IMG/VR virus record: IMGVR_UViG_3300033146_003280
Coordinates: 1-39,276 of that record
Source: a virus
Direction: 5' to 3' (one strand)
DNA: 39,276 nt
Shown piece after piece: positions 2,948 through 38,266 of the stretch. Every line of letters begins with the position of its first letter. Within the stretch, counting starts at the first letter, position 1. Below the pieces are notes generated by a model. It saw nothing but the letters and a program-made list of their open reading frames with translations. It was not told the origin of the DNA and made no database searches. The position numbers were made by a program, and so were the translations under genes.

Positions 2948-2957
2948 TTATCTTTAC
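2948..2957 (-). promoter_or_regulatory. Late-type promoter motif (GTAAAGATAA)
   Basis: Exact GTAAAGATAA on the minus strand, 18 bases before the start of the gene beginning at 2929 and back to back with a plus-strand copy 14 bases away. Confidence 0.65.
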
Positions 2958-2971
2958 AACATAAATAGTTA

Positions 2972-2981
2972 GTAAAGATAA
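2972..2981 (+). promoter_or_regulatory. Late-type promoter motif (GTAAAGATAA)
   Basis: Exact motif followed by TATAGAGGG and the terminase ATG at 2996. If the core TAAAGATA behaves like the T4 late TATAAATA element, transcription would start just before the ribosome binding site. Confidence 0.7.
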
Positions 2982-2995
2982 TATAGAGGGAAGAA

Positions 2996-5257
2996 ATGAC
3001 AGAGAAAGAGCAACTATTCGTAAATAGTATAAAAAATAAAATTGAAAAATACTCTATTCCAGTTACTTTAAAAGAAGCTGTATTACAAGGTAAGAATACA
3101 TTTATATCAACTACTTATAATAATGATAAATCAGAAATAGTTGATATAGGAATTGAAAGATATTTATGTTCTAAAAGTGCTTATTATTTTATTTCTAATT
3201 ATGCTTGGATTGACTTTCCAGGGGTAGGAATCATTCCTTTTAATTTATATTATTTTCAAGAAGAAGTTTTAAAAACAGTAGATGATTTGAAAAAATTAGT
3301 TTTTTTGAAAACAAGACAGTGTTTCCCAGAAGATACATTTGTAAATACTAATAAGGGAACTATTTCTATTAAAGATGTTAAAAAAGATGATTTAGTAGAA
3401 ACATTAGTTAATGATAAACCAACATTTGTCAAAGTGTTAGATAGTTTTTATCAAGGTGAAAAAGAATTATTATATATTAAAACTGAATTATTTGAAATTA
3501 AATGCACTTTAGATCATAGAATTTATACAACTAAAGGTTGGATAGAAGCAAAGGACTTAACATTAAATGATTTAATAGTTTCTAAATTAGACAATCAAAG
3601 AATAATATCTATTAATAAATTAGAAGGAATACATAAAGTATATGATATAACTACTGAAACATCTGATTTTTTAGCTAATAATTTATTAGTTCATAATTGT
3701 GGAATTTCAACTGTGTTTTCTTTATATTGTTTCTGGAGAGGAAATTTTAAAGATGCTGAATCAATTGATGTAGTATCTATTAAACAAAGTAAAGCCAGAG
3801 CTTTTGTTGCTAAAATGGATCAAACAATAAAAAGAATACCTGATTTTTTAAAAACTGAAATAACTCATAAAAATACAGAAGTTATTAAATGGGCTAATGG
3901 ATCTCAAATACTTTCTGAGTCAGCATCTCCTAAAGCAGGCCGTGGAGATTCACTTTCTTTATTGATTATGGATGAAGCTGCCTTTTATCAATCTGATGCT
4001 TTAACTCGTGGAATTGTTTCTGCTGCTCAACCAACTTTGACAAGAACAGGAGGATCGCAAATTATCATTTCAACTCCTAATGGGACTGTCGGAAGTGGTA
4101 GTTATTATTATGAACAAGTATCACAATTACAAGTAGATGGGAATGATAAAGATAATAAATTAGTAGAAATAGATTGGTTTGAAATTCCTGATATGCCTAA
4201 AATATATCCTAAAAAAGGATATAATGACGTATTAAATAAATTTATTAAACAAGATTATTTTAATAATAAAAATATTAGATTAAAAATGAAAAGTTTTTTT
4301 AATGATATAACAGAAAAATTTACAGAAAATGAATGGTTAAAAAAACAATATAAAGATTTAGGGAAAGTTTTATTTAAACAGGAAATTTTACATGATTTTA
4401 CTATTTCAGGAGATCAAGTATTTGAAGAAGAGGTTTTAGAAAGTTTCTTAAATACTATTAAACCTCCTATAGTAGAAGATAAAATTGGTAAAATAAGAGT
4501 TAATGGTTTGTGGATATGGAAACACCCCACTCCAAAACATAGATATATTTTAGGCATTGATGTTAGTAAAGGAACAAGTAATGACTTTTCATCTATACAA
4601 GTAATGGATGTAGATAATTATGAACAAGTAGCAGAATATAAAGCTAAAATTGGAACTAAAATGTTTGGAAGATTAATTCGATTAGTTGCTAATTATTATA
4701 ATCAGGGATATGTAGTTATAGAAGCAAATGGAATAGGAGAAGCTGTATTTAATGAAGTATATTATCATGATACAGAACCTTATACAAATGTATATAAACA
4801 AAAAATAGTAAAAGAAGGCAGAACTTTAATGACTGGTTGGAATACAAACGTAAAGACCAGACAATTAATGCTAAATAACTTAATAGATTGGTTTACATTA
4901 GATGAATTAAGAAATGAAATAAAAACTTATTCTAAAAGATTATATTTAGAGCTTACTACTTGGATATGGAAAAATGGAAGACCTGATCACGAATCAAATG
5001 GTCATGATGATGGAATAATAGGATTTGCTTTATGTTTATATTTAAGGAATAAAGCAACATCTTTTGGAGATAGTTTTTTCATATCTGAAAAAGGAGATTT
5101 TGTTGAAAGTGGGGGAACTAAAGGATTAAATGGAGAAGAAGTAAGTGATAATGGTTTTAGTGTTGTTTTATCAGAGGAAGATAAAACTGATACTATTCAA
5201 GACTTATATAACTGTAATGTAGATGAATATAATTGGCTTATTGGACCAATGGAGTAA
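2996..5257 (+). CDS. terL: Terminase large subunit precursor (intein-containing)
   Basis: The ATPase-nuclease motor that packages DNA into the prohead. The precursor is 753 aa; without the intein (residues 109-234) it is 627 aa, close to T4 gp17 (610). The spliced P-loop reads KTRQCGIST, a deviant Walker A with the lysine at its start (K105), as in phage lambda terminase and many myoviruses. Walker B is LLIMDE (D326, E327) and the coupling motif is IISTPNG. The C-terminal RNase H-like nuclease has D522 (GIDVSKG), E576 (VIEANG) and D671/D672 (HDDG). It is led by a late-type motif and GAGGG ribosome binding site. The stop codon lies inside the next late-type motif. Confidence 0.95.
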   Translation: MTEKEQLFVNSIKNKIEKYSIPVTLKEAVLQGKNTFISTTYNNDKSEIVDIGIERYLCSKSAYYFISNYAWIDFPGVGIIPFNLYYFQEEVLKTVDDLKKLVFLKTRQCFPEDTFVNTNKGTISIKDVKKDDLVETLVNDKPTFVKVLDSFYQGEKELLYIKTELFEIKCTLDHRIYTTKGWIEAKDLTLNDLIVSKLDNQRIISINKLEGIHKVYDITTETSDFLANNLLVHNCGISTVFSLYCFWRGNFKDAESIDVVSIKQSKARAFVAKMDQTIKRIPDFLKTEITHKNTEVIKWANGSQILSESASPKAGRGDSLSLLIMDEAAFYQSDALTRGIVSAAQPTLTRTGGSQIIISTPNGTVGSGSYYYEQVSQLQVDGNDKDNKLVEIDWFEIPDMPKIYPKKGYNDVLNKFIKQDYFNNKNIRLKMKSFFNDITEKFTENEWLKKQYKDLGKVLFKQEILHDFTISGDQVFEEEVLESFLNTIKPPIVEDKIGKIRVNGLWIWKHPTPKHRYILGIDVSKGTSNDFSSIQVMDVDNYEQVAEYKAKIGTKMFGRLIRLVANYYNQGYVVIEANGIGEAVFNEVYYHDTEPYTNVYKQKIVKEGRTLMTGWNTNVKTRQLMLNNLIDWFTLDELRNEIKTYSKRLYLELTTWIWKNGRPDHESNGHDDGIIGFALCLYLRNKATSFGDSFFISEKGDFVESGGTKGLNGEEVSDNGFSVVLSEEDKTDTIQDLYNCNVDEYNWLIGPME
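3320..3697 (+). other. Mini-intein within the terminase P-loop
   Basis: Residues 109-234 of the precursor form a 126-residue intein. It begins with C109 in block A (CFPEDTFV.T..G), has a block B (TLDHRIYTTKGW with H174), a block F-like segment (VYDITTE) and ends LLVHN with the penultimate H233 and N234. The following residue is C235, the +1 nucleophile. All residues for standard class 1 splicing are present. There is no LAGLIDADG or HNH domain between blocks B and F, so it cannot home by itself. It splits the Walker A between Q108 and C235, so the enzyme is inactive until splicing occurs. Confidence 0.9.
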
Positions 5258-5263
5258 AGATAA
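5254..5263 (+). promoter_or_regulatory. Late-type promoter motif (GTAAAGATAA)
   Basis: Exact copy; its TAA is the terminase stop codon. An ATG follows after exactly 4 bases, the same geometry as at 15605 and 38225 on the minus strand. Confidence 0.6.
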
Positions 5264-5267
5264 ATAT

Positions 5268-5543
5268 ATGAAATATATAAATAAAAGAAATAGAAGAGTA
5301 AAATCTAAATTAATAAACAACGGAAATAAATATAGATCAGGAGATGGTGATGAATTAGGAAGTGAAAATAGATTTCTTCATGCTGAAAGAAGTATGAACC
5401 CTATTTTATCTAATATGTCTGGAATGAAGGGAGGAGAAAATAAAATAGCAAGAAAAATAGGAAAAGGAAATGGCGTGAAAATAGATAATAAAATAGATAA
5501 AATTTATGATTTAACTAATATGGTAAGAGGTAAAATAAAATGA
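5268..5543 (+). CDS. Hypothetical basic protein, 91 aa
   Basis: The frame also allows an ATG at 5223 inside the terminase gene, but the ATG at 5268 directly follows a late-type motif and is preferred. The only Shine-Dalgarno-like sequence is a GGAG 13 bases upstream. The product is very basic (KYINKRNRRVKSK at the start), glycine- and asparagine-rich and low in hydrophobics, so probably disordered. It ends ATGA-overlapped with the portal gene. The position between terminase and portal in a T4-type head cluster suggests a small head-assembly or DNA-binding protein; no family recognised. Confidence 0.55.
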   Translation: MKYINKRNRRVKSKLINNGNKYRSGDGDELGSENRFLHAERSMNPILSNMSGMKGGENKIARKIGKGNGVKIDNKIDKIYDLTNMVRGKIK

Positions 5544-7512: not shown

Positions 7513-7522
7513 GGAAAGGTAA
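7513..7522 (+). promoter_or_regulatory. Variant late-type motif (GGAAAGGTAA)
   Basis: Two mismatches from GTAAAGATAA but with the usual A/T tail (ATATA) and an AAAGGAA ribosome binding site after it, placed between a hairpin and the next gene. Confidence 0.45.
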
Positions 7523-7539: not shown

Positions 7540-7578
7540 ATGATATCAAATATAGGAATAAACATAAATGACGAATAA
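7540..7578 (+). CDS. Possible 12-residue leader peptide
   Basis: The only good ribosome binding site in the gap (AAAGGA, 6 bases before ATG 7540) serves a 12-codon frame, MISNIGININDE. This frame overlaps the ATG of the following gene at 7568 in another frame and stops at 7578. It could couple translation of that gene, which lacks its own Shine-Dalgarno sequence. Chance is also possible. Confidence 0.3.
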   Translation: MISNIGININDE

Positions 7579-7996
7579 TTATACTTTACAAAGTTTATTA
7601 GATGAATTAAAAGAAAATATATCTCCTTTTAAAGAAGGAATGATTTTTGAAACAATTAAATCTATTTATCCTGATAGTAAAGTAAGTAAAATGAATAAAA
7701 ATATATTAATAAACGGGAAAAGAGTTACTAAACCATTAGCAAGTAATAGAAAAGCTAAGAATCAATTCGTAAAAGAAAATTCCGTAATAAAAGATTTCTT
7801 TTCAGAAATGACAAGGGGTGATTTTTTAAAAGTTGTTAAAATAGAGAATAAAGTAGCAAAATGTATTAATATGTCTTTAAAAGAAGATATTGTTAATAAA
7901 TATTATTTAAATGAAGTAATTGACATAGATTTAAATATGATAGTAGACGGATATGTCAAACAATATAAAAGAAAAGTAGATAAATTTTTCAATTAA
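7568..7996 (+). CDS. Hypothetical protein, 142 aa
   Basis: Follows the portal gene. A mixed-charge helical N-terminus (about 1-40) is followed by a basic region and a short acidic/hydrophobic C-terminal half. No cysteines, membrane segment or known motif. The start at 7568 has no Shine-Dalgarno sequence of its own and lies within a 12-codon upstream frame, so coupling is likely. In T4 the genes between portal and protease (67, 68) encode prohead core proteins; this is a positional candidate only. Confidence 0.55.
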   Translation: MTNNYTLQSLLDELKENISPFKEGMIFETIKSIYPDSKVSKMNKNILINGKRVTKPLASNRKAKNQFVKENSVIKDFFSEMTRGDFLKVVKIENKVAKCINMSLKEDIVNKYYLNEVIDIDLNMIVDGYVKQYKRKVDKFFN

Positions 7997-8004
7997 TCTT
8001 TTAA

Positions 8005-8013
8005 GTAAGATAA
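8005..8013 (+). promoter_or_regulatory. Variant late-type motif (GTAAGATAA)
   Basis: One A shorter than the consensus, followed by ATAAATATAT and AAGGAG before the ATG at 8041. Confidence 0.45.
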
Positions 8014-10287: not shown

Positions 10288-10307
10288 CCTTGTTTTATTA
10301 AACAAGG
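10288..10307 (+). other. Perfect 8-bp hairpin overlapping a late-type motif
   Basis: CCTTGTTT-TATT-AAACAAGG folds perfectly right after the protease stop. There is no downstream T run, so it is not a classic terminator. Its last two G are the first two bases of the GGAAAGATAA motif. It may be an RNA end, processing or stability element. Confidence 0.5.
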
Positions 10308-10315
10308 AAAGATAA
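10306..10315 (+). promoter_or_regulatory. Variant late-type motif (GGAAAGATAA)
   Basis: One mismatch from consensus, followed by TTATATATA and AAGGAG before the scaffold gene at 10345. Confidence 0.5.
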
Positions 10316-10344: not shown

Positions 10345-11115
10345 ATGAATATTTTAGAAATGGATCTTTCAGAAAAAGATACAGAACTTTTAACAAAAAG
10401 TTTAGAAAATTGGAAAGAAGAAGTTTATTCAAATTTACTTGAAGAAGTTGAAGAACTTAAAGAAAGTAAAATTGAAGAACTCGAAGAAGCTAATTTAGCT
10501 TATAGAGAAGAAGTAAAAGCTGAGTATGCTGATAAATTAATTGAAGCTATTAATGAAATGCGAGATGATTTAAGAGCTGAAGTTGTTTCAGAATTAGTTG
10601 ATTCAAATCCTGAACTTAAAATTTTAGAAAAAGTTAAGGAAGTTGTTGCTCCTCTTTTAAACGAAGATTTTGTAGGCAATATTTATGCTGAAGAAATTAT
10701 GAACTTAAAAGAAGAAGTCGAGTATTTAAGAGAAGAAAAAGAATTAGAAGAAGGTGCTACTGCACTTGCTGAATTACTTTCTCCTCTTTCCGAACAAACT
10801 CAAAATCTCATTTTAGCTGTTATTAAAGAAGGTAATGAGGAAGAAGTTACTGAACAGTTTTATAACATTATCGAAAGTCTTAATATTTTAGACGAAGATG
10901 ATGATGATGATGATGATGATGACGAAGATGATGACGAAGATGATAAGAAAAAGAAAAAGAAAAAAGATGATGATGACGAAGACGAAGATGATGAAGACGA
11001 AGATGATGAAGAAGAAACTGATGAGGAATTCGATCCTTACACAGACGAAGATGAAGAAGTAGCTATAGTAAATGAAAACGCTTTAAAAAATAGAATGAAA
11101 AACCTTATAGGTTAG
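10345..11115 (+). CDS. Prohead scaffold/core protein (T4 gp22-like)
   Basis: Internal scaffold around which the capsid assembles and which is degraded by the protease. It lies between protease and capsid genes. The first 150 residues are charged coiled coil (repeated EEVEELKE-type heptads). The C-terminal third holds a run of aspartates and glutamates interrupted by seven lysines (about 182-235), then a short helix (ALKNRMKNLIG) like the conserved C-terminus of scaffold proteins that bind the shell. The acidic tract is encoded by a GAT/GAC/GAA triplet array. Length (256) is near T4 gp22 (269). Confidence 0.8.
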   Translation: MNILEMDLSEKDTELLTKSLENWKEEVYSNLLEEVEELKESKIEELEEANLAYREEVKAEYADKLIEAINEMRDDLRAEVVSELVDSNPELKILEKVKEVVAPLLNEDFVGNIYAEEIMNLKEEVEYLREEKELEEGATALAELLSPLSEQTQNLILAVIKEGNEEEVTEQFYNIIESLNILDEDDDDDDDDDEDDDEDDKKKKKKKDDDDEDEDDEDEDDEEETDEEFDPYTDEDEEVAIVNENALKNRMKNLIG

Positions 11116-11130: not shown

Positions 11131-11140
11131 GTAAAGATAA
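11131..11140 (+). promoter_or_regulatory. Late-type promoter motif (GTAAAGATAA)
   Basis: Exact copy upstream of the capsid gene, with a longer A/T leader of about 25 bases before the GGAGG ribosome binding site (11166-11170). Confidence 0.65.
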
Positions 11141-12873: not shown

Positions 12874-12903
12874 TTGACAAAAAAATATGTAATATGTTAT
12901 AAT
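12874..12903 (+). promoter_or_regulatory. Consensus sigma70-type promoter
   Basis: TTGACA (12874-12879), 18-base spacer, TATAAT (12898-12903). The expected start of transcription, seven bases after the -10 box, is 12910, which is the A of the endonuclease ATG. Confidence 0.8.
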
Positions 12904-12909
12904 AATTAT

Positions 12910-13611
12910 ATGAGTAAAAAGAAAACGACTAAAAAATTTATAGAAGAAAGTTTATTAATACATGATAATTTATATAATTATTCTAAAGTAAAATATGTTA
13001 ATAATAAAACGAAGGTAGAAATTATTTGTAAAAAACATGGTTCTTTCTTTCAAGAGCCAAGTAGTCATTTAATAGGGAAAGGTTGTAATGAATGTGCTAA
13101 ATTATATAAAAGAAAATTATTTGTAAATAATGATTTTGTAATTAAAGCTAATATAGTTCATGATAATTTATATAATTATTCTAAAGTAAAATATGTTAAT
13201 AATAAAACAAAAGTAGAAATAATATGTAAAATACATGGTTCATTTTTTCAAAGACCTGATAGTCATTTGCAAAATCACGGATGCCCTATTTGTAAAAGTA
13301 GCAAAGGGGAAAAACAAATAGCTGATTATTTGAATAAACAAAATATAAAATATGTTAATGAAAAAACATTTAAGGGGTTAAAATATAAAGGGTCTTTAAG
13401 ATATGATTTTTACTTACCTGACTATAATACTTTAATAGAATTTGATGGCATTCAACATTTTAAACAAATTCCTTTTTTTGAGGATTTAAAAACATTACAA
13501 ATAAAAGATGGTATAAAAACTAATTTTGCTAAAGAGAAAGATATTAAATTATATAGAATAAAATATACTGAAATAGAATCTATTGAAAGTATTATGGAAA
13601 GCATTATATGA
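12910..13611 (+). CDS. Homing endonuclease, EDxHD/Vsr-like, with duplicated zinc ribbons
   Basis: The frame opens upstream with TTG at 12874, but that TTG is the -35 box of a promoter. The start is ATG 12910 (233 aa). Two tandem modules of about 65 residues, each with HDNLYNYSKVKY, C..HG.F.Q and C..C, act as likely DNA-binding zinc ribbons. The C-terminal domain has YDFYLPDYNTLIEFDGIQHF, the core of EDxHD homing endonucleases such as I-Bth0305I. The usual later H-D pair reads K-D here (IKDGIKTN), so catalysis may be altered. It sits behind the capsid gene with its own promoter and no Shine-Dalgarno sequence. Confidence 0.75.
   Translation: MSKKKTTKKFIEESLLIHDNLYNYSKVKYVNNKTKVEIICKKHGSFFQEPSSHLIGKGCNECAKLYKRKLFVNNDFVIKANIVHDNLYNYSKVKYVNNKTKVEIICKIHGSFFQRPDSHLQNHGCPICKSSKGEKQIADYLNKQNIKYVNEKTFKGLKYKGSLRYDFYLPDYNTLIEFDGIQHFKQIPFFEDLKTLQIKDGIKTNFAKEKDIKLYRIKYTEIESIESIMESII
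12961..13208 (+). repeat. 50-bp perfect direct repeat inside endonuclease gene
   Basis: Bases 12961-13010 recur unchanged at 13159-13208 (period 198 bp), encoding the same part of both zinc-ribbon modules. Identity at synonymous positions indicates a recent duplication or gene conversion. Confidence 0.85.
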
Positions 13612-14561
13612 GAGAAGTAAAAGGCAATTTACAGAAGTGTAGTGTTTGTGGTGAATTTAAAACATTTGATTTATTTTATAAAAGAAAAGACAGTAAATAT
13701 GGGATAGAGGGACTATGTAAAGTTTGTAAAAATGATCGAAAGAATGGGAGAAGAGAAAGTTTAAATAAAGTAGTTTGTGATTTAACTAATTCAACACAAG
13801 TATGTAGAGTATGTAAGGTTAGTAAAAAATTTGATGAATTTGTAAAGGATAAGAGTAGGAAAAATGGAATAACTACTTTGTGTAAAGCTTGTAAAAGAGA
13901 AGCTTATGTTAATAAACCTTATATAAGAGAAAATAAAAGGGAAATTGATTTAATTAATTCAACACAAAAATGTGCTGTATGTGGTAAAACAAAATCATTT
14001 GATTTATTTACAGTAAATAAAAGTAAATTAAACAATTTAGATAATGTATGTAAAGAATGTAATTCAACAAGAACAAGAGAATATTATAAAAAATTTCCTA
14101 AAAAGAAAAAAGAAGCTGATAATAAATATGGAATAACTCACAAAAAAGAAATTTCTAATAATAAAAAAAATTATTATATATTAAATGAAGAATATATAAA
14201 AGAAGATAGGAAAGAATACTATATAGAAAACACTGAAGAAATTAAAAAAAGAGTAGCTAATTATAGTAAAACTCCACGAGGGAGAGCTGTAAAATTACAA
14301 AGTCGTCATTTAAGAAGAGCTAAAATGAAAGAAGTTGAAACAGATATTTCAAAGGAGTATTTAATTGAATTAAGGAGTTCAACTATTGTTTGTGAAATTT
14401 GTGGAACTAAATTAGTAAATGAAATATCAGATAGTCAATATAATTTAGATCATATAATACCAATTAATGTAGGTGGAAAACATATGAAAGATAATGTAAG
14501 ATATATATGTAGGAAATGTAATTTAAAAAGGCCAAAAGACGGTAGTGATTTAATTATGTAA
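13608..14561 (+). CDS. HNH homing endonuclease with three zinc-finger repeats, 317 aa
   Basis: Overlaps the previous endonuclease by ATGA, so both are made from one mRNA. Three repeats of C..C...K.FD.F...K....G....C..C (about residues 11-40, 66-96, 122-150) form a DNA-binding array. After a lysine/tyrosine-rich linker, the C-terminus (about 258-312) is an HNH nuclease: CEICG, LDHIIPINVGGKH, N, CRKCN. Free-standing HNH enzymes are common in T4-type phages. The gene's stop codon lies inside a late-type promoter motif, so phage control resumes right after it. Confidence 0.85.
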   Translation: MREVKGNLQKCSVCGEFKTFDLFYKRKDSKYGIEGLCKVCKNDRKNGRRESLNKVVCDLTNSTQVCRVCKVSKKFDEFVKDKSRKNGITTLCKACKREAYVNKPYIRENKREIDLINSTQKCAVCGKTKSFDLFTVNKSKLNNLDNVCKECNSTRTREYYKKFPKKKKEADNKYGITHKKEISNNKKNYYILNEEYIKEDRKEYYIENTEEIKKRVANYSKTPRGRAVKLQSRHLRRAKMKEVETDISKEYLIELRSSTIVCEICGTKLVNEISDSQYNLDHIIPINVGGKHMKDNVRYICRKCNLKRPKDGSDLIM

Positions 14562-14567
14562 AGATAA
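14558..14567 (+). promoter_or_regulatory. Late-type promoter motif (GTAAAGATAA)
   Basis: Exact copy containing the stop codon of the HNH gene. No convincing coding frame follows before the terminator at 14753. Confidence 0.6.
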
Positions 14568-14966: not shown

Positions 14967-15439
14967 GTAATATATTGATCTACATGTCTTATATTAGGGC
15001 CTTTTCCAAAAACATTTAAAGCCATCATTCCACCTGAAATCAAATAGAACGCAGGAATTAAACCAGCAATTACGACACCTAATCCAGCAGATAACCCGAT
15101 AGCAGCTAAAGCTTTTTTAACAATAGGGGAATTTAAATCATTAAATAATTTTTTATTATCATTGACTAATTTTTTTGATTTTTCTTTAGCAGTTTTTTTA
15201 TCAATTACTTTATTTAAATAATCATTTTCTATTTTTTCAAATTTTGTTTTTAATTTAGATACATGAGTAATTAAAGTGGTTAAAACTCTTTTTTGCTCTT
15301 CTGAAATACCATTAGCTCTTTCAGTATTTAATTTTGTTTTAATAGAATTTATATGTTTTTCTAATTTTTTACTTTTCTTAAAATACTTCAATCCTTCATC
15401 AATTACTTCTTCATTCATTAAAAATTCATTCAAGTTCAT
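14963..15439 (-). CDS. Head-internal or membrane protein candidate, 158 aa
   Basis: GAGG-led start overlapping the preceding 59-residue gene. The N-terminus MNLNEFLMNEEVIDE resembles capsid-targeting sequences and ends in I-D-E (13-15), a gp21-type cleavage triplet. Residues 20-100 are basic coiled coil. Residues 110-144 form a hydrophobic, glycine-rich hairpin (GLSAGLGVVIAGLIPAFYLI). A packaged protein with a membrane-active tail is a reasonable guess. Similar layouts occur in the proteins at 18720-19304 and 28683-30416. Confidence 0.55.
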   Translation of the reverse strand: MNLNEFLMNEEVIDEGLKYFKKSKKLEKHINSIKTKLNTERANGISEEQKRVLTTLITHVSKLKTKFEKIENDYLNKVIDKKTAKEKSKKLVNDNKKLFNDLNSPIVKKALAAIGLSAGLGVVIAGLIPAFYLISGGMMALNVFGKGPNIRHVDQYIT

Positions 15440-15605
15440 CTAAAACCTCTACTTTATATTTTCCATTAGAAGATATATTAATAACCCTTCCATGCTTAAT
15501 TACATTTTTACTTACTTCAATATCACATTCAATACATAAAGGATTTTCAAATGTTTTATAATAAAATCTAGGAAAATCTTTATTATCCTCTATAATGTAT
15601 ATCAT
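15426..15605 (-). CDS. Small hypothetical protein with CxxC, 59 aa, likely leaderless
   Basis: ATG 15605 lies exactly 4 bases after a GTAAAGATAA motif (15610-15619) and has no Shine-Dalgarno sequence. The frame runs 59 codons to TGA at 15426, overlapping the start of the next gene. The product has a C24-I-E-C27 pair and a beta-rich C-terminus (VIKHGRVINISSNGKYKVEVL). The combination of the motif position and overlap with the downstream gene supports it as a real first gene of a two-gene operon. Function unknown. Confidence 0.6.
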   Translation of the reverse strand: MIYIIEDNKDFPRFYYKTFENPLCIECDIEVSKNVIKHGRVINISSNGKYKVEVLDELE

Positions 15606-15609: not shown

Positions 15610-15619
15610 TTATCTTTAC
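15610..15619 (-). promoter_or_regulatory. Late-type promoter motif (GTAAAGATAA)
   Basis: Exact copy facing left; forms 12-bp inverted arms (ATTTATCTTTAC/GTAAAGATAAAT) with the plus-strand copy at 15632. Confidence 0.65.
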
Positions 15620-15631: not shown

Positions 15632-15641
15632 GTAAAGATAA
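15632..15641 (+). promoter_or_regulatory. Late-type promoter motif (GTAAAGATAA)
   Basis: Exact copy facing right, followed by ATATATGAGG and the neck gene at 15659. An ATG 4 bases downstream opens only a 9-codon frame; the GAGG-served ATG is the gene start. Confidence 0.7.
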
Positions 15642-18694: not shown

Positions 18695-18704
18695 GTAAAG
18701 GTAA
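18695..18704 (+). promoter_or_regulatory. Variant late-type motif (GTAAAGGTAA)
   Basis: One mismatch, immediately after the neck gene stop, followed by TATAAAGG and ATG 18720. Confidence 0.5.
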
Positions 18705-18719: not shown

Positions 18720-19304
18720 ATGAAAAGTTTTAAAAATTATATAGATGAAAATGAATTAAATGAAATGGATATATCAACTGTTGTTATTATGTCAGCTTTA
18801 GGAATACCTGTTGCTGGAATAGCAGCTTATGGAGGGTCTTTACTTTTAAAAGGATACTCTAAATTTTTAGCAATTGTTTTAAATAAAATAATTTTCACAT
18901 GGAAAGATATTTTTAAAAATATTAAAACAATTGGGAAAAAAGAAGTAATAGATGTTATAAATGATAATAAAAAAAATAGTTATGTAAAGAAATATATAAA
19001 TGAAGGGGAAAAAACTAGAAGAATTTATGAAGAAGAATTAAATAAAGTTTATAAAGCTATAGAAAGTAAAGACTTTGACAAAGCTAATGTTGAATTAAAA
19101 AAAGTTGATAAAAAAATATCAAACAATTTAGAAGTCAGAAGAATGATAATTTCTGAGATTTCCTCTTCTTTAAAAGAGCCACCTTTACATTTAGGAGTAA
19201 CTGGTAATAAAACATATAAAGCTATAAAAAAAATATTAGATATTAAAACAGCAGCTGCGGCAGCTGAAGCTACTAAATTAGCAATTGAGAAAGGTTTAAA
19301 ATAA
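18720..19304 (+). CDS. Head-internal protein candidate with capsid-targeting-like N-terminus, 194 aa
   Basis: The first residues MKSFKNYIDENELNE closely match the start of the protein at 28683-30416 (MISFKNYLNE) and the style of T4 internal-protein targeting peptides. I-D-E (8-10) and L-N-E (13-15) fit gp21-type cleavage. Residues 19-45 are hydrophobic and glycine-rich (a membrane segment). The rest is basic coiled coil ending in an alanine-rich helix. The gene sits inside the neck operon and overlaps the next gene by 1 base. Packaged membrane-active protein is inference. Confidence 0.5.
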   Translation: MKSFKNYIDENELNEMDISTVVIMSALGIPVAGIAAYGGSLLLKGYSKFLAIVLNKIIFTWKDIFKNIKTIGKKEVIDVINDNKKNSYVKKYINEGEKTRRIYEEELNKVYKAIESKDFDKANVELKKVDKKISNNLEVRRMIISEISSSLKEPPLHLGVTGNKTYKAIKKILDIKTAAAAAEATKLAIEKGLK

Positions 19305-21583: not shown

Positions 21584-21593
21584 GTAAAGATAA
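21584..21593 (+). promoter_or_regulatory. Late-type promoter motif (GTAAAGATAA)
   Basis: Exact copy, then a 25-base A/T leader and GGAGG before the sheath ATG. The leader resembles that of the capsid gene, the other very abundant protein. Confidence 0.65.
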
Positions 21594-23916: not shown

Positions 23917-23944
23917 AAAAAGCCCTCTATTTAAAGAGGGCTTT
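23917..23944. terminator. Bidirectional terminator between sheath and endonuclease gene
   Basis: AAAAGCCCTCT-ATTTAA-AGAGGGCTTTT, an 11-bp stem with T or A runs on both sides. It overlaps the last codons of the minus-strand gene. Confidence 0.88.
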
Positions 23945-25368: not shown

Positions 25369-25656
25369 TTATTGTATTTTTAATTCATTATTATCATGAT
25401 TTACTTCCTCTACTACTTCTCTTGGGAAAAAACTTTTATTATTATCATCTGTTATGTTTATTTCTAATAAATTCATTACTTCTTTTTGTTTCTCACTTAA
25501 ATCAGATGCTAAAATTAATAAAATTGAAAATATAGGATTTTCCACTACTTTCTTTTTATCAAATGTAAATTCATCTATTTTTATCTTTTTACTTCCAATA
25601 ATAGGAACATTTTTTACATTCCATTGATTTAATTCAAAATCTTCTTTTTTAATCAT
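25369..25656 (-). CDS. Hypothetical protein, 95 aa
   Basis: ATG overlaps the stop of the upstream endonuclease gene (ATGA) with GGAGG 3 bases before the start, so it is translated from the same mRNA. The protein is acidic; the middle (FSILLILASDLSEKQKEVMNLL) is a hydrophobic helix followed by a charged helix. This sequence resembles generic small phage tail or chaperone proteins but I cannot assign it. The endonuclease gene may have been inserted between this gene and the endolysin. Confidence 0.5.
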   Translation of the reverse strand: MIKKEDFELNQWNVKNVPIIGSKKIKIDEFTFDKKKVVENPIFSILLILASDLSEKQKEVMNLLEINITDDNNKSFFPREVVEEVNHDNNELKIQ

Positions 25657-26435
25657 ATTACCTCCATCACTATTTTCTCCACTTTATTATAATCTTTATA
25701 TGATATTCTAATTAGATTATATTCATTTTTTTCAGCAAATTCATTTTTTATCTTATCATGTAATACAGTTTTTTTAAATTTTTCTTCTCCTCCGAAATGT
25801 TTTATAATTTCAAAATGATGTCTCCCATCATATTCAATTAAAGTATTATGTTCTGGTAAATAAAAATCAAAAGGAAGCAAATTAGTATCTTTACAATTTT
25901 CAAAAGTTTTTTCATTTATAAATGAAATATTTTCTTTTTTTAAAAAATTATATATTTTATTTTCTCCTTTTGATCTATTACTTGGAAAGCATTGTTTACA
26001 TACTGGTATTCTTTTTCCAAATAAATGATCTTTAAAAACAGATCCACAAGTTATACATTTAAAAGTATAATATTTTTTTTCATTTCCTACATCTTTTCGG
26101 TTTCCAGTTCTAGTCCCAATATATTTTTCTAATAATAATAAATTATTATCTTGCAACCTTTTTTTTATTACTTCAAAACTTTTCTTTATTCTTTTTTCTC
26201 TTCTTTTTAATAAAACATTTTCATTTTCGGTAGAAGTTTTATATCCATACTTTTTTAAATTTGTTTTTTCTCTTTTACATTCTTTACATAACGTTATATC
26301 TTTTAAAGCATACTGCCCTAATTTTTTACTATTTTTTCCACATTTTGAACAAACAAAAAAAATAGTATCTGAAGATACTATTTTATGATTTCTTATGTCT
26401 ACTTCCACTTTATTCTTATTTATGATTTTAATCAT
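25653..26435 (-). CDS. EDxHD homing endonuclease, 260 aa
   Basis: Overlaps the endolysin stop (ATGA) and the following gene (ATGA), as if slotted precisely into an operon. An N-terminal C..C/C..C ribbon is followed by one KYG unit, a basic helix, then CITCG...CKQC and the nuclease domain: LPFDFYLPEHNTLIEYDGRHHF, HFGG, LHDKIKNEF, LIRISY. All catalytic positions of the EDxHD family are present. It is a shorter paralogue of the 388-residue protein downstream, lacking five of the KYG repeats. A terminator-like hairpin lies inside its first 30 codons. Confidence 0.78.
   Translation of the reverse strand: MIKIINKNKVEVDIRNHKIVSSDTIFFVCSKCGKNSKKLGQYALKDITLCKECKREKTNLKKYGYKTSTENENVLLKRREKRIKKSFEVIKKRLQDNNLLLLEKYIGTRTGNRKDVGNEKKYYTFKCITCGSVFKDHLFGKRIPVCKQCFPSNRSKGENKIYNFLKKENISFINEKTFENCKDTNLLPFDFYLPEHNTLIEYDGRHHFEIIKHFGGEEKFKKTVLHDKIKNEFAEKNEYNLIRISYKDYNKVEKIVMEVI
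26355..26384 (-). terminator. Terminator-like hairpin inside endonuclease coding region
   Basis: On the minus strand AAAATAGTATC-TTCA-GATACTATTTT makes an 11-bp perfect stem running into eight consecutive T. It lies within codons about 18-27 of the endonuclease gene, just past the endolysin stop, and would end most endolysin transcripts when not covered by ribosomes. Confidence 0.65.
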
Positions 26436-27142
26436 ATTATTTCTACATATTTACTATTACAATAACCTATTAAATCATTATGTTTTATTTTATACCATCC
26501 ATTTTTTATTCCTATTATTTCAATTTCCCAATCTAATCCAATTACTCCAACTTTTTCTCCCATTATATCATCTCTTATATTTAATGAATTAGCTAAACAT
26601 TTTCCTTTAATTCCTTTAATCATTAAATCATGAATTTCTTGTTTGAAAATGATTAAATCTTCTGGATTATTTACAAACCAACGAGGACAATCTTTCCAAC
26701 CAACGATAGCTTGGTGTGTAGTTATATCATTAGAAGTTAAATTATATTGTTGTAATAACAAAGCAGTTAACATTTTTGTTTTATTTATTGTTTCTTCACT
26801 AAATTCCCCCTCCCAATTCAAATGACACATTTCAATACCTATAGTGCAATTATTTGGATAACTGCTTAAAGATAACCCATAATCAGTATATGTTTTTGAC
26901 CCTACATGATAACTCATTTCTTCTTGTGTTAAATATTGTAACGCTTCTCCATCTACTCCTACACAAAAATGAGCAGATCCATATCCTGTTTTCCCTTTTT
27001 TTCTTTGCTCAAACCAATTGAATACAGTAGTAGGTGTCCCTTTAGAATCTGCTATCCAATGTAAAACAATGGCTTTAACTTTTTTTAAAGTTTTATTTGG
27101 TCTACTAAATTCATTAATAGTTAATAATTTTTGTTTAATCAT
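26432..27142 (-). CDS. Endolysin: N-acetylmuramoyl-L-alanine amidase with SH3 domain, 236 aa
   Basis: Cleaves the bond between N-acetylmuramate and L-alanine in peptidoglycan. The amidase_2/PGRP-type domain (about 18-165) shows zinc ligands H28 (IVLHW), H143 (TTHQA) and C152 (KDCPRWF) plus YGSAHFCVG and TIGIEM. A C-terminal SH3-like domain (about 178-236: LNIRDDIMGEKVGVI...NGWYKIKHNDLIGYCNSKYV) should bind the wall. No signal peptide, so a holin or similar is needed. AGGAGGG ribosome binding site. Transcribed from a sigma70-type promoter two genes upstream in the operon order rather than a late-type motif. Confidence 0.9.
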   Translation of the reverse strand: MIKQKLLTINEFSRPNKTLKKVKAIVLHWIADSKGTPTTVFNWFEQRKKGKTGYGSAHFCVGVDGEALQYLTQEEMSYHVGSKTYTDYGLSLSSYPNNCTIGIEMCHLNWEGEFSEETINKTKMLTALLLQQYNLTSNDITTHQAIVGWKDCPRWFVNNPEDLIIFKQEIHDLMIKGIKGKCLANSLNIRDDIMGEKVGVIGLDWEIEIIGIKNGWYKIKHNDLIGYCNSKYVEII

Positions 27143-27152
27143 ATTTCCCTCC

Positions 27153-27410
27153 TTATATTGGTAATAAATATTGTTTATTAATTTTATTTTTTGTTTTAAT
27201 AACGTATTTTTTTCTTGTTTTTACTAAATTCATATCACAACTTTTTGCTAATTCATCATCATAAATTATTTTATCATCAACTATTTTAAACCTAATTGGA
27301 ATTTCCCCATAGTTAGTTAATCTAAAAAGATTATTATATCTTTCTTTAATAGCTTCTCTTAAATTTCTTTCTTCTGGGTTTTTTAAATAAGCATATAAAA
27401 AATTATCCAT
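27153..27410 (-). CDS. Hypothetical basic protein, 85 aa
   Basis: First gene behind a perfect sigma70-type promoter with a 13-base leader that contains GGAGGG and little else. The product has an aromatic N-terminus (MDNFLYAYLKNPEERN), a basic middle and a very basic C-terminus (KTRKKYVIKTKNKINKQY). No motif recognised. It is cotranscribed with the endolysin 10 bases downstream. Confidence 0.6.
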   Translation of the reverse strand: MDNFLYAYLKNPEERNLREAIKERYNNLFRLTNYGEIPIRFKIVDDKIIYDDELAKSCDMNLVKTRKKYVIKTKNKINKQYLLPI

Positions 27411-27429
27411 TTCTTCCCTCCATATATAT

Positions 27430-27458
27430 ATTATAACATATTATATATTTCTTGTCAA
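27430..27458 (-). promoter_or_regulatory. Consensus sigma70-type promoter
   Basis: TTGACA (27458-27453), 17-base spacer, TATAAT (27435-27430). Expected start 27423, leader 13 bases. The -35 box contains the TGA stop of the upstream gene. Confidence 0.88.
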
Positions 27459-27937
27459 TGTTTTATTGTTATCATAGCTGTAGCATTCATTTCTCCAACT
27501 CCAGATGTAAAAACAGAAGTTTTACCATCTACTTTAACAGTAAATTTAACATCTTCATTCATTAATGATTTATCATATTCCAAATGAAATCCAGTATTAT
27601 TTAAATTTTTTAATATATTACCTTCCATACTTAAAGTAGGTGATATACTATATTTAAAAACTGAATCATGTTTTTTTATTTCTCCAAAAATAGACGGTTT
27701 TACTGAAAAATTTTCAGCATTTATTCCAGATGTAAAAACAGAAGCATTTCCTGATATTTCAATTTTAATTTCAATCTCTTTATTTATAAAATCTTTATCA
27801 AATTCTAAATCAAAAGTAGTTTTTTCTAAATCAATTACTTTTAATGGGTTTTTTATATCAAATTTCTCCCAATCAAATACCGGATTTACACTTCCATCTA
27901 TTTTTACTATTTTCTCTTGAAATTCATTCCAATTCAT
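27455..27937 (-). CDS. Hypothetical beta-rich protein with internal duplication, 160 aa
   Basis: GGAGA-led gene. Two homologous halves are visible: TTFDLEFDKDFINKEIEIKI..SGNASVFTSGI (about 40-74) and TGFHLEYDKSLMNEDVKFTV..DGKTSVFTSGV (about 114-147), sharing SVFTSG. This suggests a duplicated beta-sandwich. No cysteine, signal peptide or membrane segment. It follows the M23 peptidase gene by 12 bases and may be a virion or cell-wall-associated partner of it; that is inference. Confidence 0.55.
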   Translation of the reverse strand: MNWNEFQEKIVKIDGSVNPVFDWEKFDIKNPLKVIDLEKTTFDLEFDKDFINKEIEIKIEISGNASVFTSGINAENFSVKPSIFGEIKKHDSVFKYSISPTLSMEGNILKNLNNTGFHLEYDKSLMNEDVKFTVKVDGKTSVFTSGVGEMNATAMITIKH

Positions 27938-27949
27938 ATACTATCTCCT

Positions 27950-28606
27950 TTAATAAACTTTTGGATCATCTAAATAAAACAATGATTGAATAGGATTTTT
28001 ATTTTCATCCCATAATTCAAAATGAAGGTGTTCTCCATAAGACATCCCTGTATTTCCTGTTCTACCAATTACTTGTCCTTTCTTTACAAATCTATTTTTT
28101 CCATGTTCAGATATATTATAAATGAGATCCATATGAGCATACATAGAATATCTACCATCATCATGTTTAATAACTACTTTTCCCCCAAAAACAGGATCTC
28201 CTTTAAAATATCCATTAGGAGCAGGATAGTATTCTATAACTTCTCCATCTGCTATAGCAAGTATTCTTGCATGATGAGTTCCAACTAAATCAACCCCTGT
28301 ATGATTACTGTCTTTTGTTCCACCTGTAAATGGATTAAGTAGTTGTCTATATCCAAACTCAGAAGTCATTCTATCATAATCTTCAATCATAATAGGCCAT
28401 GGATAAATAGGTTTATCATGTATTTGTTTTAAAGTAATATCCATATAGTGTATTGAAGAAGATAGCAATGAATTATTTATTTTATATGATTTTATTTCAT
28501 TATTTAAAGATTTTATATGATTTATATATCCTACTTGTATTCTAAATAAAGTAGTTAAAGTAAAAACAGAAACAACTCCTATTTTATATATATTTTCTAA
28601 TTTCAA
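27950..28606 (-). CDS. M23-family metallopeptidase with N-terminal membrane anchor, 218 aa
   Basis: Zinc endopeptidase that cuts peptidoglycan cross-bridges. Starts with TTG behind AGGAG. Residues 8-22 form a signal anchor, 30-65 a coiled stalk. The LytM/M23 domain carries H102 and D106 (NHTGVDLVG), H158 (YAHMD), and H193-L-H195 (GEHLHFELWD), a complete active site. Spacing and length match phage-encoded or bacterial wall hydrolases anchored in the membrane. It has its own sigma70-type promoter just upstream. Either a second lysis enzyme or a tail-associated hydrolase; the membrane anchor favours the former. Confidence 0.88.
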   Translation of the reverse strand: MKLENIYKIGVVSVFTLTTLFRIQVGYINHIKSLNNEIKSYKINNSLLSSSIHYMDITLKQIHDKPIYPWPIMIEDYDRMTSEFGYRQLLNPFTGGTKDSNHTGVDLVGTHHARILAIADGEVIEYYPAPNGYFKGDPVFGGKVVIKHDDGRYSMYAHMDLIYNISEHGKNRFVKKGQVIGRTGNTGMSYGEHLHFELWDENKNPIQSLFYLDDPKVY

Positions 28607-28622
28607 TTTTTTCTCCTATAAA

Positions 28623-28648
28623 TAAAAAGACTATCCGAAGATAGTCTT
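28623..28648 (-). terminator. UUCG-loop terminator nested in a promoter
   Basis: On the minus strand AAGACTATC-TTCG-GATAGTCTT, a 9-bp stem with a stable UUCG loop, is followed by TTTATTT. It ends the upstream 577-residue gene and begins exactly where the -10 box of the next promoter stops. Confidence 0.85.
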
Positions 28649-28677
28649 ATTATACAATATTATATATGTTTTGTCAA
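28649..28677 (-). promoter_or_regulatory. Consensus sigma70-type promoter
   Basis: TTGACA (28677-28672), 17-base spacer, TATAAT (28654-28649). Expected start about 28642, inside the left arm of the hairpin, so its own transcripts cannot form the full terminator. Confidence 0.88.
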
Positions 28678-31079: not shown

Positions 31080-31089
31080 TTACCTTTAC
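31080..31089 (-). promoter_or_regulatory. Variant late-type motif (GTAAAGGTAA)
   Basis: One mismatch, facing left, followed by ATTAGAGG and ATG 31066. It fixes the start of the HAD gene. Confidence 0.55.
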
Positions 31090-31116
31090 AATTCATAAAT
31101 TATAGAATATAATAAA

Positions 31117-31566
31117 TTATTTATCCCAACTTCCAGGAGATAATCTACCAGTTTTAACATCATAATAAAAATAATCTTCTCCATTATCATAAAACTTTTT
31201 CATTTTATTTTTAATTTCTAAATCAGATACTCCATTTAAATATTTCATCATATCTTTTCTTTGAATAATTTTTACTTTTTTCATCCTATCATTACTTTTC
31301 ATAATAGTATCAGCTAATTTTTCAGAATATCCTTGTTTCATAATGTCTGTTTTATATTTTCTTTTAACAGAACTTTCTTTTATTTCATCTTTTGATTCCC
31401 AAGCTTTATCAATTTTATCATAAATTTCTTTACTTAATTTATGTCCGTGTTTCGCTGTAACACATTTATAAAATTCTTTATAATTTTTATATATTTTTTT
31501 ATTCTCTTCTGGAGTATTATTTAAACAATCTTTTTTTATCTTTTCTATTTCTTCTCTTAATTTCAT
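31117..31566 (-). CDS. Hypothetical basic protein, 149 aa
   Basis: Starts behind a late-type motif with GAGGTG. Lysine-rich, with three cysteines or histidines scattered (C14, C35, H39, H42) but no clear metal site. Two helical regions and a C-terminal YFYYDVKTGRLSPGSWDK. It is first in a three-gene minus operon with the HAD and internal-protein candidates. No family recognised. Confidence 0.55.
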   Translation of the reverse strand: MKLREEIEKIKKDCLNNTPEENKKIYKNYKEFYKCVTAKHGHKLSKEIYDKIDKAWESKDEIKESSVKRKYKTDIMKQGYSEKLADTIMKSNDRMKKVKIIQRKDMMKYLNGVSDLEIKNKMKKFYDNGEDYFYYDVKTGRLSPGSWDK

Positions 31567-31581: not shown

Positions 31582-31591
31582 TTATCTTTAC
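31582..31591 (-). promoter_or_regulatory. Late-type promoter motif (GTAAAGATAA)
   Basis: Exact copy facing left for the gene starting at 31566. With the plus copy at 31595 it forms a 23-bp palindrome. Confidence 0.65.
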
Positions 31592-31594: not shown

Positions 31595-31604
31595 GTAAAG
31601 ATAA
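31595..31604 (+). promoter_or_regulatory. Late-type promoter motif (GTAAAGATAA)
   Basis: Exact copy facing right, followed by TATATAGGAG and ATG 31622. Confidence 0.7.
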
Positions 31605-31621: not shown

Positions 31622-31882
31622 ATGCCGTTTTATGAGATGAATTGTGAATGTGATTATGTAGAAGAAATGTTATTAGATATTACAACAAATTTAGATAAAG
31701 TAATTTGCCCTAAATGTGGGAAATTTATGAAACAAAAAATTACAACAGGTAATTTTATATTAAAAGGATATAACTGGGCCAGTAAAGGAAATGTTGATAA
31801 ACCCCATAGAGTAAAACAAACAGGGTATAGAATAGATCACGATATGAAAAATGAAATGAAATTAGCTGGAGAAAAAGTATGA
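31622..31882 (+). CDS. FmdB-like zinc ribbon protein, 86 aa
   Basis: MPFYEMNCEC...VICPKCGKFM gives a zinc ribbon with C8, C10, C29 and C32, in the exact style of FmdB-family small regulatory proteins (MPxYE..C..C, CP.CG), followed by a F.L.G.NWA segment, also typical. Phages often encode one near structural or lysis genes; the function in phages is not established. First gene of a plus-strand four-gene operon and ATGA-overlapped with the next. Confidence 0.75.
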   Translation: MPFYEMNCECDYVEEMLLDITTNLDKVICPKCGKFMKQKITTGNFILKGYNWASKGNVDKPHRVKQTGYRIDHDMKNEMKLAGEKV

Positions 31883-33231: not shown

Positions 33232-36200
33232 TTATGATCCGAATATTTGAACACTAATTCTATTGCTATCTGCACCAGTCGCTGATTCTATATGAGAAAC
33301 CCTTACATGGCCTGTGTTAAATGCTGTTGCTTGATTACCACTATTTACCCAGTTTAAGCAAGAAGCTGTAACTACTGCACTATAATTTGCATCTTTCATA
33401 GCATTAATAAAGTTTACAGTATAGTCACCTGTTCCATTATCAGTTACACTTGATACATTAAAACTGTCTCTTATGTCACAATCTCCTGCTGTGTTAGTAG
33501 TACCATCAAAATTAACCCATGCTTTACATACTCTCTTTTCATTAGTACTTACAATAGCCCAATTTATTCCATTAGGGATTATGCGTAATGTCTCATCACC
33601 CCTCATAATATAAGGGGATGAAGAACCTTCAATTGTATCTGAACCTGAAGTTGTAATAGTAACTGTTCCTGCACCTGCTCCTGTTCTTTTGATGTTATAT
33701 TCTGTTATTTGAGTGCTTGCATCTGGCAGAGTAAAAGTTTGATTATCACCTGTTGTTATATTAAATACTTTACGATATGAAGTCTCTGCATAAGTAGCTA
33801 CTAAGTTTATTTTGGTTAGGACTACTTTATATTCAAAAGAACCATCTGTTAGAATGATAGCACTACCACCTGTGTCAGGAATATATCTACCAGGATTAGA
33901 GGCATTGTGCATTTGCAATACACAAATATTGTTGTTACCACTAACACCATTTAATCTTTGGCCATAATGTGTTGTACTTCCATCATATATATCGTAGTCA
34001 GTAACATTATATATTTTATCAGGTGTTGCTGTTGCCCTTACAAATATCTGACCTGTATATTCATCAAAAGGCACACCCCAATCATGTGTTATAGTTATAC
34101 TTGCTCCTGCTGTCCAGGTTGATGTACTACTCCAATCTTGTATATATTGAATAGCAGATATAGGCTCTCCTGCTGTAGTTATATATTCTACTTTAGTGTA
34201 GTAAAACATAATTACTGTTTTAGGTCTTGTTTCATTAATTGTTCGTGGTGTGCCGTTATTTAGTGTGTCTTCTTTTGGTTCTTCAGAGTCTAAAGTTATA
34301 GGGTCATCCATCCCTCGTCTTACTGACCCATCTGCTCCTGCTCCTGTTATTTGAACATGAGTATCAACTTCATGTATATGTCCTTGCATAGCATCATCTA
34401 GTACAATTCCTTCTTGTGTTAAATTAAATGTTCCTGTTGCTGTTGCTGTTATGTCAACTGCTGAAGAATCGTCTATAGCATTTTGTTCTGTCAAATATGC
34501 TTTAACATAAAAATTAACATCATCAACAAATCTTAAATAATAAACTGTTCCTATACTTAAGCCTGTTGGCAAAGTACCTATTAAATAAACAGGAACTCCA
34601 TTATAAGAATCAGTAAAGTATTTCATTCTACGGTATTTATTATAATCTGCTTCTGAAAGTGTAATAGTATCATTACCTGTTGATATATCAGCAGTAGCAT
34701 CTATAGAAGCTGAATTAGGAATACCTGATCTACTGTAAAACCCAGGAGGAGGTGTTGGATAGAATAATGTATCTAAAATAGTAACATCTGTATCCCCTGC
34801 TGCAACGTGAGCATCATTCCATTTATGTCCTATCTCCGCAAATAAAATAGAATAATTAGCTTGACTAATAGCATTATCAAAATCATCAGGTAACATTCCT
34901 TGATTTGATCTATCTTTATAAGTAGCATATTGTATTCTTGCACCAACATCTAAACCATTATCATATGATCTATTTGGTTCAGGAGATGAAATATTTAAAT
35001 CTAATTGATAGCTACTTTTTGAATAACCAATGGGTACTTTAGTATAATAATACTCTATTTCTCCAGTAGATAATAAACCACCATTTATACCACCAAAATA
35101 TTGTTGTCCAATATTTAAAATTCCTCTATTGATTTCATATGTTGCTCCTGAAGCTAATACAGGAATAGTTTCTAAAGTAAGTTGAGTATTAGAATCAACA
35201 GAAATTATTTTATGAAAATTTGGATTTCCTTGAAAATTAAAATAATCACCTATTACAACATTTGAAACAAAAGATGTTCCTGTTCCAGTTACTATATTAG
35301 ATGTTCCATCAGTTGTAACAATACCTGTATTATATTGTAGATTATAATAATTATTATTTAAGCCACTTTTTTGAACAGAAATTATTTCATCTATTACGCC
35401 ATCAGTTAAAGCACTTCCTACTACAAAGAATTTATTAGTAGAAACATCTGCTTTGACAATTTTTCCATCTATATTTAAACATACTATATCTGCTTTATTT
35501 ATTGCTTCAGCACATACAAATTCAGTGACTGAATTTGTAGCACCCCCTCCACTATTTCCATTCATTTGTTGCCATTCAAAACCATTCCATTTATACCAAT
35601 AAGGATCTACATAATATTCTTGTCCAAAAATACCTTCTGTAGGTAATGAAGATCCTCCAGCAATTGTTTCATATGTTGAAACAAGACCAGCTCTATCTCT
35701 TATTTGAATAATTTCATCAGTAGAAGCAGGATCTGATAAAGTAACAATATCTTTATATTCATTAATAAAATAATCTATATCTTCAGCGATTAAAAAAGTA
35801 TCATTTATAGATAAACTAGCTGGTAAAGGAGTATCTAAAGTAATTGTATCAGTTGAAACAGAATCTATTCTTCTTACTTCATATACATTTAAATTATTAT
35901 CAGTTGAAATAAATTGAATAAAATAATTTTCAGTTCCTGTAAAATCTTCTGTATTAGCTGTAAATGTAGAAGGATTTGTAACAGAAGTGACTGTAATCAT
36001 TCCATCGTTTCCATAATTTTTATCAATAACTGATTCAGCTAAAATAGAACCAGATAAAAAAACATCTGTTCTATTAGGCATTATATGAAAATTTGTTTTA
36101 ATATCAGTTAAAGACCCTGTATAATCATCTAAAGCATGTCCTATTATATAAGTTCTTTTTTCTGGATAAAAATTTTCACCCCCAACAATTACTTTTAAAG

Positions 36201-37710: not shown

Positions 37711-37718
37711 ATATTCTC

Positions 37719-38225
37719 CTATTTAATCTTCTTCCAAAGAAGCCCATTTTTTTCTTTAATACCTTTCATATGTTTCTTCATATATCTACGAATAAATTTA
37801 CTTTGTTCTGGAAAAAAATATTTTATTCTACGATATTTTTCCTCTTTATTGTTTGATAACATATCTCCAAAATTTGATATATCATCAATTGCTTTTATTG
37901 CTTCTTTCCTGTTTTTTACATAATTTAAATTATATCCTAATATATCTTTTCTTTTTCCATAACTTTTTTGGTTAATTTGTCCTAAATAATTATGATCTAA
38001 TACTTTTACTTTAGGCCTTTTATCATGTTTATAATTTGTATAATGAAATTTAATATATTGTAAACTCTCTTTTAATACACCACAATTAGGACAATTATCA
38101 ACAGATGTATTATATATGAAACCACATTTTTTACAAGTTATTATATCATATTTTAAATTTTTTCTACGAATAAAATATAATCTTTTTTTTATTAAATTAT
38201 TCCCTACACTATTTGACGTAATCAT
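37719..38225 (-). CDS. Zinc-ribbon protein, 168 aa, likely leaderless
   Basis: A start at 38288 would read through both promoter motifs and the neighbouring gene start. ATG 38225, exactly 4 bases after a GTAAAGATAA motif, is preferred though it has no Shine-Dalgarno sequence. A four-cysteine ribbon, CKKCGFIYNTSVDNCPNCG (about 31-49), is followed by a basic helical body. Overall very basic, so possibly RNA- or DNA-binding. First gene of the minus-strand fibre operon. No family recognised. Confidence 0.6.
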   Translation of the reverse strand: MITSNSVGNNLIKKRLYFIRRKNLKYDIITCKKCGFIYNTSVDNCPNCGVLKESLQYIKFHYTNYKHDKRPKVKVLDHNYLGQINQKSYGKRKDILGYNLNYVKNRKEAIKAIDDISNFGDMLSNNKEEKYRRIKYFFPEQSKFIRRYMKKHMKGIKEKNGLLWKKIK

Positions 38226-38229
38226 ATAT

Positions 38230-38239
38230 TTATCTTTAC
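38230..38239 (-). promoter_or_regulatory. Late-type promoter motif (GTAAAGATAA)
   Basis: Exact copy facing left, four bases before ATG 38225; 12-bp inverted arms with the plus copy. Confidence 0.7.
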
Positions 38240-38256
38240 ATCTTGTAAAGTTAAAT

Positions 38257-38266
38257 GTAAAGATAA
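38257..38266 (+). promoter_or_regulatory. Late-type promoter motif (GTAAAGATAA)
   Basis: Exact copy facing right, followed by TTGTAGAGGG and ATG 38280. A degenerate GTAAAGTTAA lies 12 bases upstream (38245-38254). Confidence 0.7.

Follow-up and report, generated by a model that had tools for sequence, protein, structure and literature searches.

The recurrent motif GTAAAGATAA is interpreted here, with a probability of roughly 0.87, as a late promoter belonging to a deep, uncultivated lineage of T4-like phages, one that would be read by a gp55-like sigma factor and would produce some of its mRNAs without a leader. A sequence-only reading of the same DNA had suggested that the motif may be the promoter used by a divergent late sigma factor of the T4 type, and this proposal is supported by the presence of a gp55-like sigma factor in relatives, by a start signature at the T4 distance, and by the association of the motif with virion genes. 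Two points go beyond that reading, namely the register between box and start codon that marks the predicted leaderless genes, and the drift of the box among related phages.

Box copies and gene content of the analysed window

The window is the whole viral record of 39,276 bases, with a GC content of 25.9% and a coding share of ~95%, for which gene starts were taken from a simple caller. It carries a T4-like structural module comprised of homologues of the large terminase gp17, the portal gp20, the protease gp21, the capsid protein gp23 and the sheath protein gp18, all identified by PHROG matches, together with an Ad2-like neck gene, which places the phage among the T4-like (gp23-type) myoviruses. 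Among the records listed, no deposited phage has a gp23 more than about 28% identical to that of the window. The gp17 large terminase (gene 2996-5257) probably contains an intein (CFPEDTFVNTNKGTISIKD...) near residue 108, and the terminases of the relatives give their best alignment to it only from about residue 200. Genes resembling HNH/homing endonucleases are found within the structural module at 12874-14561, 23927-25093 and 25653-26435, the latter two being called by eye only.

All 12 exact copies of GTAAAGATAA listed by the sequence-only reading are present on the strands given, and each of them faces downstream sequence able to hold a gene. Ten are wholly intergenic, and the remaining two (5254 and 14558) overlap the stop codon of the preceding gene, as had been pointed out. 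Back-to-back copies occupy all four divergent gene junctions of the window. The copy at 2948..2957 (-), predicted to drive 2285-2929 (-) from a +1 at 2943, forms a divergent pair with 2972..2981 (+), which would drive the gp17 terminase gene from a +1 at 2986. The copy at 15610..15619 (-) stands 4 nt before the ATG at 15605 of a small predicted leaderless gene, 15426-15605 (-), and that at 15632..15641 (+) precedes the Ad2-like neck gene 15659-18694. The copies at 31582..31591 (-) and 31595..31604 (+) are assigned to 31117-31566 (-) and 31622-31882, respectively, and a box is also found before the homologue of the former in the 201-kb relative G006. The copy at 38230..38239 (-) lies 4 nt before the ATG at 38225 of the predicted leaderless gene 37719-38225 (-), which is followed by a 1492-aa tail-fibre-like gene, and the copy at 38257..38266 (+) is assigned to 38280-39275, a gene open at the record end. 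Immediately upstream, at 38245..38254 (+), we found a tandem variant, GTAAAGTTAA, that had been overlooked. The protein encoded by 38280-39275 resembles, by eye, a tail-collar fibre.

Among the remaining exact copies, 5254..5263 (+) overlaps the gp17 stop and is followed 4 nt on by the ATG of the predicted leaderless gene 5268-5543 (+; 91 aa), located ahead of gp20; 11131..11140 (+) would drive the major capsid gene gp23, starting at 11164 or 11182; and 21584..21593 (+) the sheath gene gp18 (21629-23905). The copy at 14558..14567 (+) overlaps the stop codon that ends the HNH gene 13608-14561, and a possible 38-aa ORF at 14624 is the sole gene candidate close behind it. The proposed spacing of 10-35 nt between box and gene is too narrow a range, since it extends from 4 nt at 5268, 15605 and 38225 to 56 nt at 14624.

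Three of the proposed near copies differ from the exact motif by tolerated substitutions only: GGAAAGGTAA at 7513..7522 (+), before 7568-7996; GGAAAGATAA at 10306..10315 (+), before the gp22-like gene 10345-11115, where several relatives also have a box; and GTAAAGGTAA at 18695..18704 (+), assigned to 18720-19304. The near copy at 8005, a one-base-deleted form, may or may not be a true copy. A further GTAAAGGTAA at 31080..31089 (-) lies 14 nt upstream of position 31066 (-), which is favoured over 31096 as the gene start because of similarity to the G006 homologue; the location of this copy would be odd if the gene began at 31096.

Enrichment of the motif and its conservation in relatives

De novo analysis of the regions upstream of window genes, carried out without prior knowledge of the motif, returned GTAAAGAT as the most enriched 8-mer, with 10 of its 13 copies located within 60 nt of the 44 starts, where 0.38 would be expected (p about 1e-13). 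When one mismatch is allowed, the window contains 31 matches, compared to 12.9 +/- 3.5 in shuffled sequences. The T4 word TATAAATA was also considered as the real box and rejected, being absent among the enriched words and having no AUG register.

Relatives were fetched via their capsid and portal proteins and include the 201-kb G006 and the 160-kb G012; most are fragments. Their capsid proteins are 41-65% identical. Across 19 non-redundant records we counted 79 copies of GTAAAGATAA, against a mean of 9.3 in letter-shuffled controls. Of these copies, 54 (68%) are on the same strand as a gene and within 60 nt upstream of it, a placement seen for 9.8% in 150 letter-shuffled controls, and 20% fall inside genes versus 85% in the controls. 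Equal frequency inside genes or in the wrong orientation, the outcome named beforehand as refuting a promoter, is decisively not what these records contain. Orthologous genes in the relatives, among them gp23, gp22-like and Ad2 genes, retain the box, often at the same place despite the divergence of the encoded proteins.

Some copies are located in frame within the 3' end of gp17 (L051 2182, L053 2600, L058 404, L059 3251, L061 1979, G002 9669, G001 16302 (-) and G006 74576 (-)); they encode S-K-D-N/K, or G-K-D in one case. As these sites were selected by exact match, they could be overlapping promoters or simply coding sequence. No comparable clear box was found in a 45-kb stretch of Flavobacterium phage immuto, which is among the nearest cultivated phages, and a literature search for TAAAGATA together with 'late promoter' found no paper. 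Capsid relatives are also present on MAG contigs assigned to Treponema (two) and Elusimicrobiota (one) (L125, L126, L127), labels that give a weak hint of the host.

Box anatomy and predicted transcription start

The box has the consensus G-[T/a/g]-AAAG-[A/g/t]-TA-[A/t/c]. Judging by single-base variants, the G at position 1, the G at 6, the T at 8 and the A at 9 appear strict, as do the As at positions 3-5, where variants are rare, while positions 2, 7 and 10 are loose. A logo of 60 sites is flat from -40 to the box, followed by the box itself, four free nucleotides and then purines. With no conserved bases between -40 and the box, we conclude that the promoter has no -35 element.

Among the 55 sites that are separated from their start codon by 24 nt or more, 48 (87%) have a purine five bases downstream of the 10-mer, compared to 50% in the preceding four nucleotides (p=4e-9), and the base just before this predicted +1 is a pyrimidine in 71%. 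Counted from the purine, the box occupies -13 to -6, the register of T4 late promoters, as indicated by both the jump in purines and the AUG register described below. T4 late boxes analysed in the same way have 83% purine at +1 in the same register, and TATAAATA emerged as the top T4 word, which demonstrates that the method works. In a diverged group of relatives (G007, G012 and G014-G016) the box has changed to AAGTTAA, and the purine signal at +1 is repeated there (p=9e-5). Actual RNA ends would be expected at the +1 so predicted.

Start codons at the predicted +1

Open reading frames of at least 40 codons start exactly 5 nt after TAAAGATA (GTAAAGATA) in 10 cases and never at 3, 4 or 6-9 nt (p=0.0002 by shuffling for the concentration of ATGs at one spacing). 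With a start at this distance, the A of AUG coincides with the predicted +1, and none of the 10 ATGs is preceded by a Shine-Dalgarno sequence. In the AAGTTAA phages, 14 starts are found at 4 nt, 8 at 5 nt, and 2 in total at 0-3 nt; control words are flat, and the close ATGs again have no Shine-Dalgarno sequence. The register of the small gene at 15605 (-) is kept in its G002 and G010 orthologues, the latter with a GGAAAGATAA box. These register tests were done after the pattern had been noticed; the AAGTTAA phages and the test for purines at sites with distant starts serve as independent checks.

Leaderless late mRNAs from the close-ATG genes are the likeliest reading of this pattern. It is also conceivable, though unlikely, that the promoter is correctly identified and these genes are nevertheless not leaderless, either because the true starts are located downstream or because the RNA begins further upstream. 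The close starts were picked by open frame, and some ATGs of the AAGTTAA group are at 5 nt rather than 4, as such an explanation would allow; a single sharp spacing that reappears with a different box and is kept by orthologues, at ATGs devoid of Shine-Dalgarno sequences, argues for the leaderless reading.

A second, sigma-70 promoter class

The 201-kb relative G006 contains 34 near-identical sigma-70 promoters, TTGACAAAAAAAG...TATAAT (TTGACA...TATAAT), upstream of genes for adenylosuccinate synthetase, RNA ligase, SSB, DNA polymerase III alpha and a Dda-like helicase. Downstream of the late-type motif in the same genome are Ad2, tail fibre and gp25-like genes, plus several genes without assignment. 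As in T4-type phages, the motif is found before virion genes and apart from early-type promoters, and the genes downstream suggest early timing for one class and late timing for the other.

Perfect sigma-70 promoters are present in the window as well. One of the HNH/homing-endonuclease-like insertions has its own, at 12874..12903 (+), before the HNH gene. Lysis-type genes at 26432-28677, encoding an endolysin amidase and a peptidase-like protein, are behind such promoters and not behind the late box: that at 28649..28677 (-) precedes the peptidase-like gene 27950-28606, and that at 27430..27458 (-) precedes 27153-27410 and the endolysin gene.

Several other features of G006 were observed. It has a DNA polymerase of bacterial type, Pol III alpha, distributed over three genes (170891, 173770 and 183857) with one HNH insertion, and no T4 gp43 match was seen. 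A phage-encoded tmRNA (L016 12523-12807) with the tag DETETYYAQVA adjoins an array of ~20 tRNA genes, one with the anticodon CTA. Four tandem small genes at 34575-36189 each start with MKKRxGFVSNSSSSSF, and about eight CxxxCxxC radical-SAM-like proteins, recognised by eye only, are encoded near tail-fibre genes at about 99209-112755 (L019, L020).

A gp55-like sigma factor in the relatives

Matches to the late sigma family were obtained first in G006 and G010 and then at 16 loci; a gp55-like sigma gene occurs once per record, near packaging genes, in 10 of the 19 records. The window fragment contains no such gene, and the window phage would encode its sigma outside this fragment. Of the 14 aligned members, 11 matched the late sigma family phrog_234 (best 1.3e-6) and 9 matched Sigma70_r2 with E-values of up to 1, the best being 7e-5; a single Sigma70_r2 match from six-frame translation fell below Pfam's cut-off. 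In hhalign, comparison with eight known gp55 proteins gave P=1.9e-5 over 116 columns at a probability of 78%, the match covering the N-terminal segment and sigma region 2 collinearly. The predicted structural model (pLDDT 79, pTM 0.47) retrieved nearly exclusively sigma factors among the 50 fold matches listed, at weak E-values of 0.05-1, including sigma-32, sigma-S, sigma-28 and SigA. Together these comparisons point to remote homology with gp55.

Detection of this protein required a family profile, a single-sequence phmmer search with T4 gp55 having returned nothing significant. Among PDB sequences the sigma profile found only a weak SigA match (E=0.24), and tblastn with the sigma gave no match in 50,697 phage records. 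No copy was found in the host genome contigs. Factors of the gp55 family end in a hydrophobic/acidic tail that binds the clamp; most of the sigma C-termini here have E-[IL]-F-like tails (EIFEGIR, ELFGDAE), whose role may or may not be the same. A search of the relatives detected no sliding clamp of either gp45 or beta type, possibly reflecting a limit of sensitivity, and because no clamp was detected a T4-like coupling to replication is unproven.

Proposed mechanism and alternative explanations

In the proposed mechanism, host core RNA polymerase carrying the phage gp55-like sigma would recognise only the -10-like box, which spans -13 to -6, and, in the absence of a -35 element, would start RNA on the purine located five bases beyond the 10-mer. 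The majority of late mRNAs would have a short leader with a Shine-Dalgarno sequence, and in a minority the A of AUG would be +1, leaving these mRNAs leaderless. The co-occurrence of sigma and box and the promoter architecture suggest that the gp55-like sigma reads GTAAAGATAA. Whether late box and sigma have drifted together, with the start codon set on +1 at a gene subset by the design of the promoter and possibly with clampless activation, we regard as an even bet.

The recognition of the box could be attributed to other factors. Sigma-28 promoters have the consensus -35 TAAA and -10 GCCGATAA, and AAAGATAA resembles this -10 through a common GATAA core, so that a sigma-28-like alternative sigma of the host might read the box; this is very improbable given the flat logo upstream, where a TAAA would be expected, the drift to AAGTTAA inside the lineage, and the fact that the relatives encode a sigma of their own. 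A short strict box with a fixed start also recalls the jumbo phages, and short late-promoter motifs are read by phage polymerases (PMC5312081), yet direct reading by a phage-encoded RNA polymerase, T7-like or phiKZ-like, is rated lower still: no RNAP beta-prime domain was found in 9 records, a search made without a positive control found no T7-like enzyme, and the relatives have a sigma in place of such a polymerase. The lowest rating is given to a site bound by a regulator protein of the phage, or an element of replication or packaging, that is not itself the promoter, which would account for a repeated, strict sequence and for back-to-back copies in divergent gaps but not for the strict gene orientation, the +1 purine and the AUG register.

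A late promoter read by a gp55-like sigma would provide: i) a readable late regulon for a lineage that is known here from metagenomes only, with no close cultivated relative found; ii) a +1 predicted to the base from sequence alone; iii) a set of naturally occurring sigma and box variants (GTAAAGATAA, GGAAAGATAA, AAGTTAA) from which the way gp55-type factors read DNA could be learned; and iv) leaderless late translation in T4-like phages as a testable idea. The location of the promoter-recognition element of gp55 is called speculative in a T4 review.

Comparison with known late promoters

The T4 late promoter lacks a -35 element and consists of one A/T-rich box, at -13 to -6, recognised by gp55, a sigma-domain-2 factor (PMC2988020). 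The promoter described here shares the box position, the lack of a -35, the predicted purine start, the virion genes and, probably, the type of factor. The box itself, TAAAGATA or TAAAGTTA, departs from the T4 consensus: (G)TAAAGATA(A) is identical to TATAAATA at 6 of 8 positions, and it requires a preceding G and an internal G. Because the T4 late architecture is present and the TATAAATA consensus is not, we classify it as a divergent variant. Some start codons here coincide with the predicted +1, whereas in the 50-kb T4 late region examined no open-frame ATG is less than 14 nt from a late box, the nearest being at 14 nt. In T4 the gp45 clamp and gp33 stimulate late transcription by gp55, and no clamp was found in the relatives.

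Aeromonas phage Aeh1, with its late promoter a/gCTAAATA and diverged gp55 (PMC1524935, PMC2988020), is a precedent for a late box drifting along with its sigma, although other bases have changed and the box in the present lineage varies further, from AAGATAA to AAGTTAA. The sigma of the relatives aligns collinearly with the N-terminal segment and sigma region 2 of the gp55 family (phrog_234), but is mostly 210-235 aa long with a longer C-terminal part, and its gene is near gp17 rather than next to gp47 as in several known phages. The lambda cI transcript has its AUG at the RNA 5' end without a Shine-Dalgarno sequence. Phage transcripts are often leaderless (PMC5312081). The arrangement of lambda cI is also predicted here, but in this T4-like lineage it is found repeatedly, at a single class of promoter.
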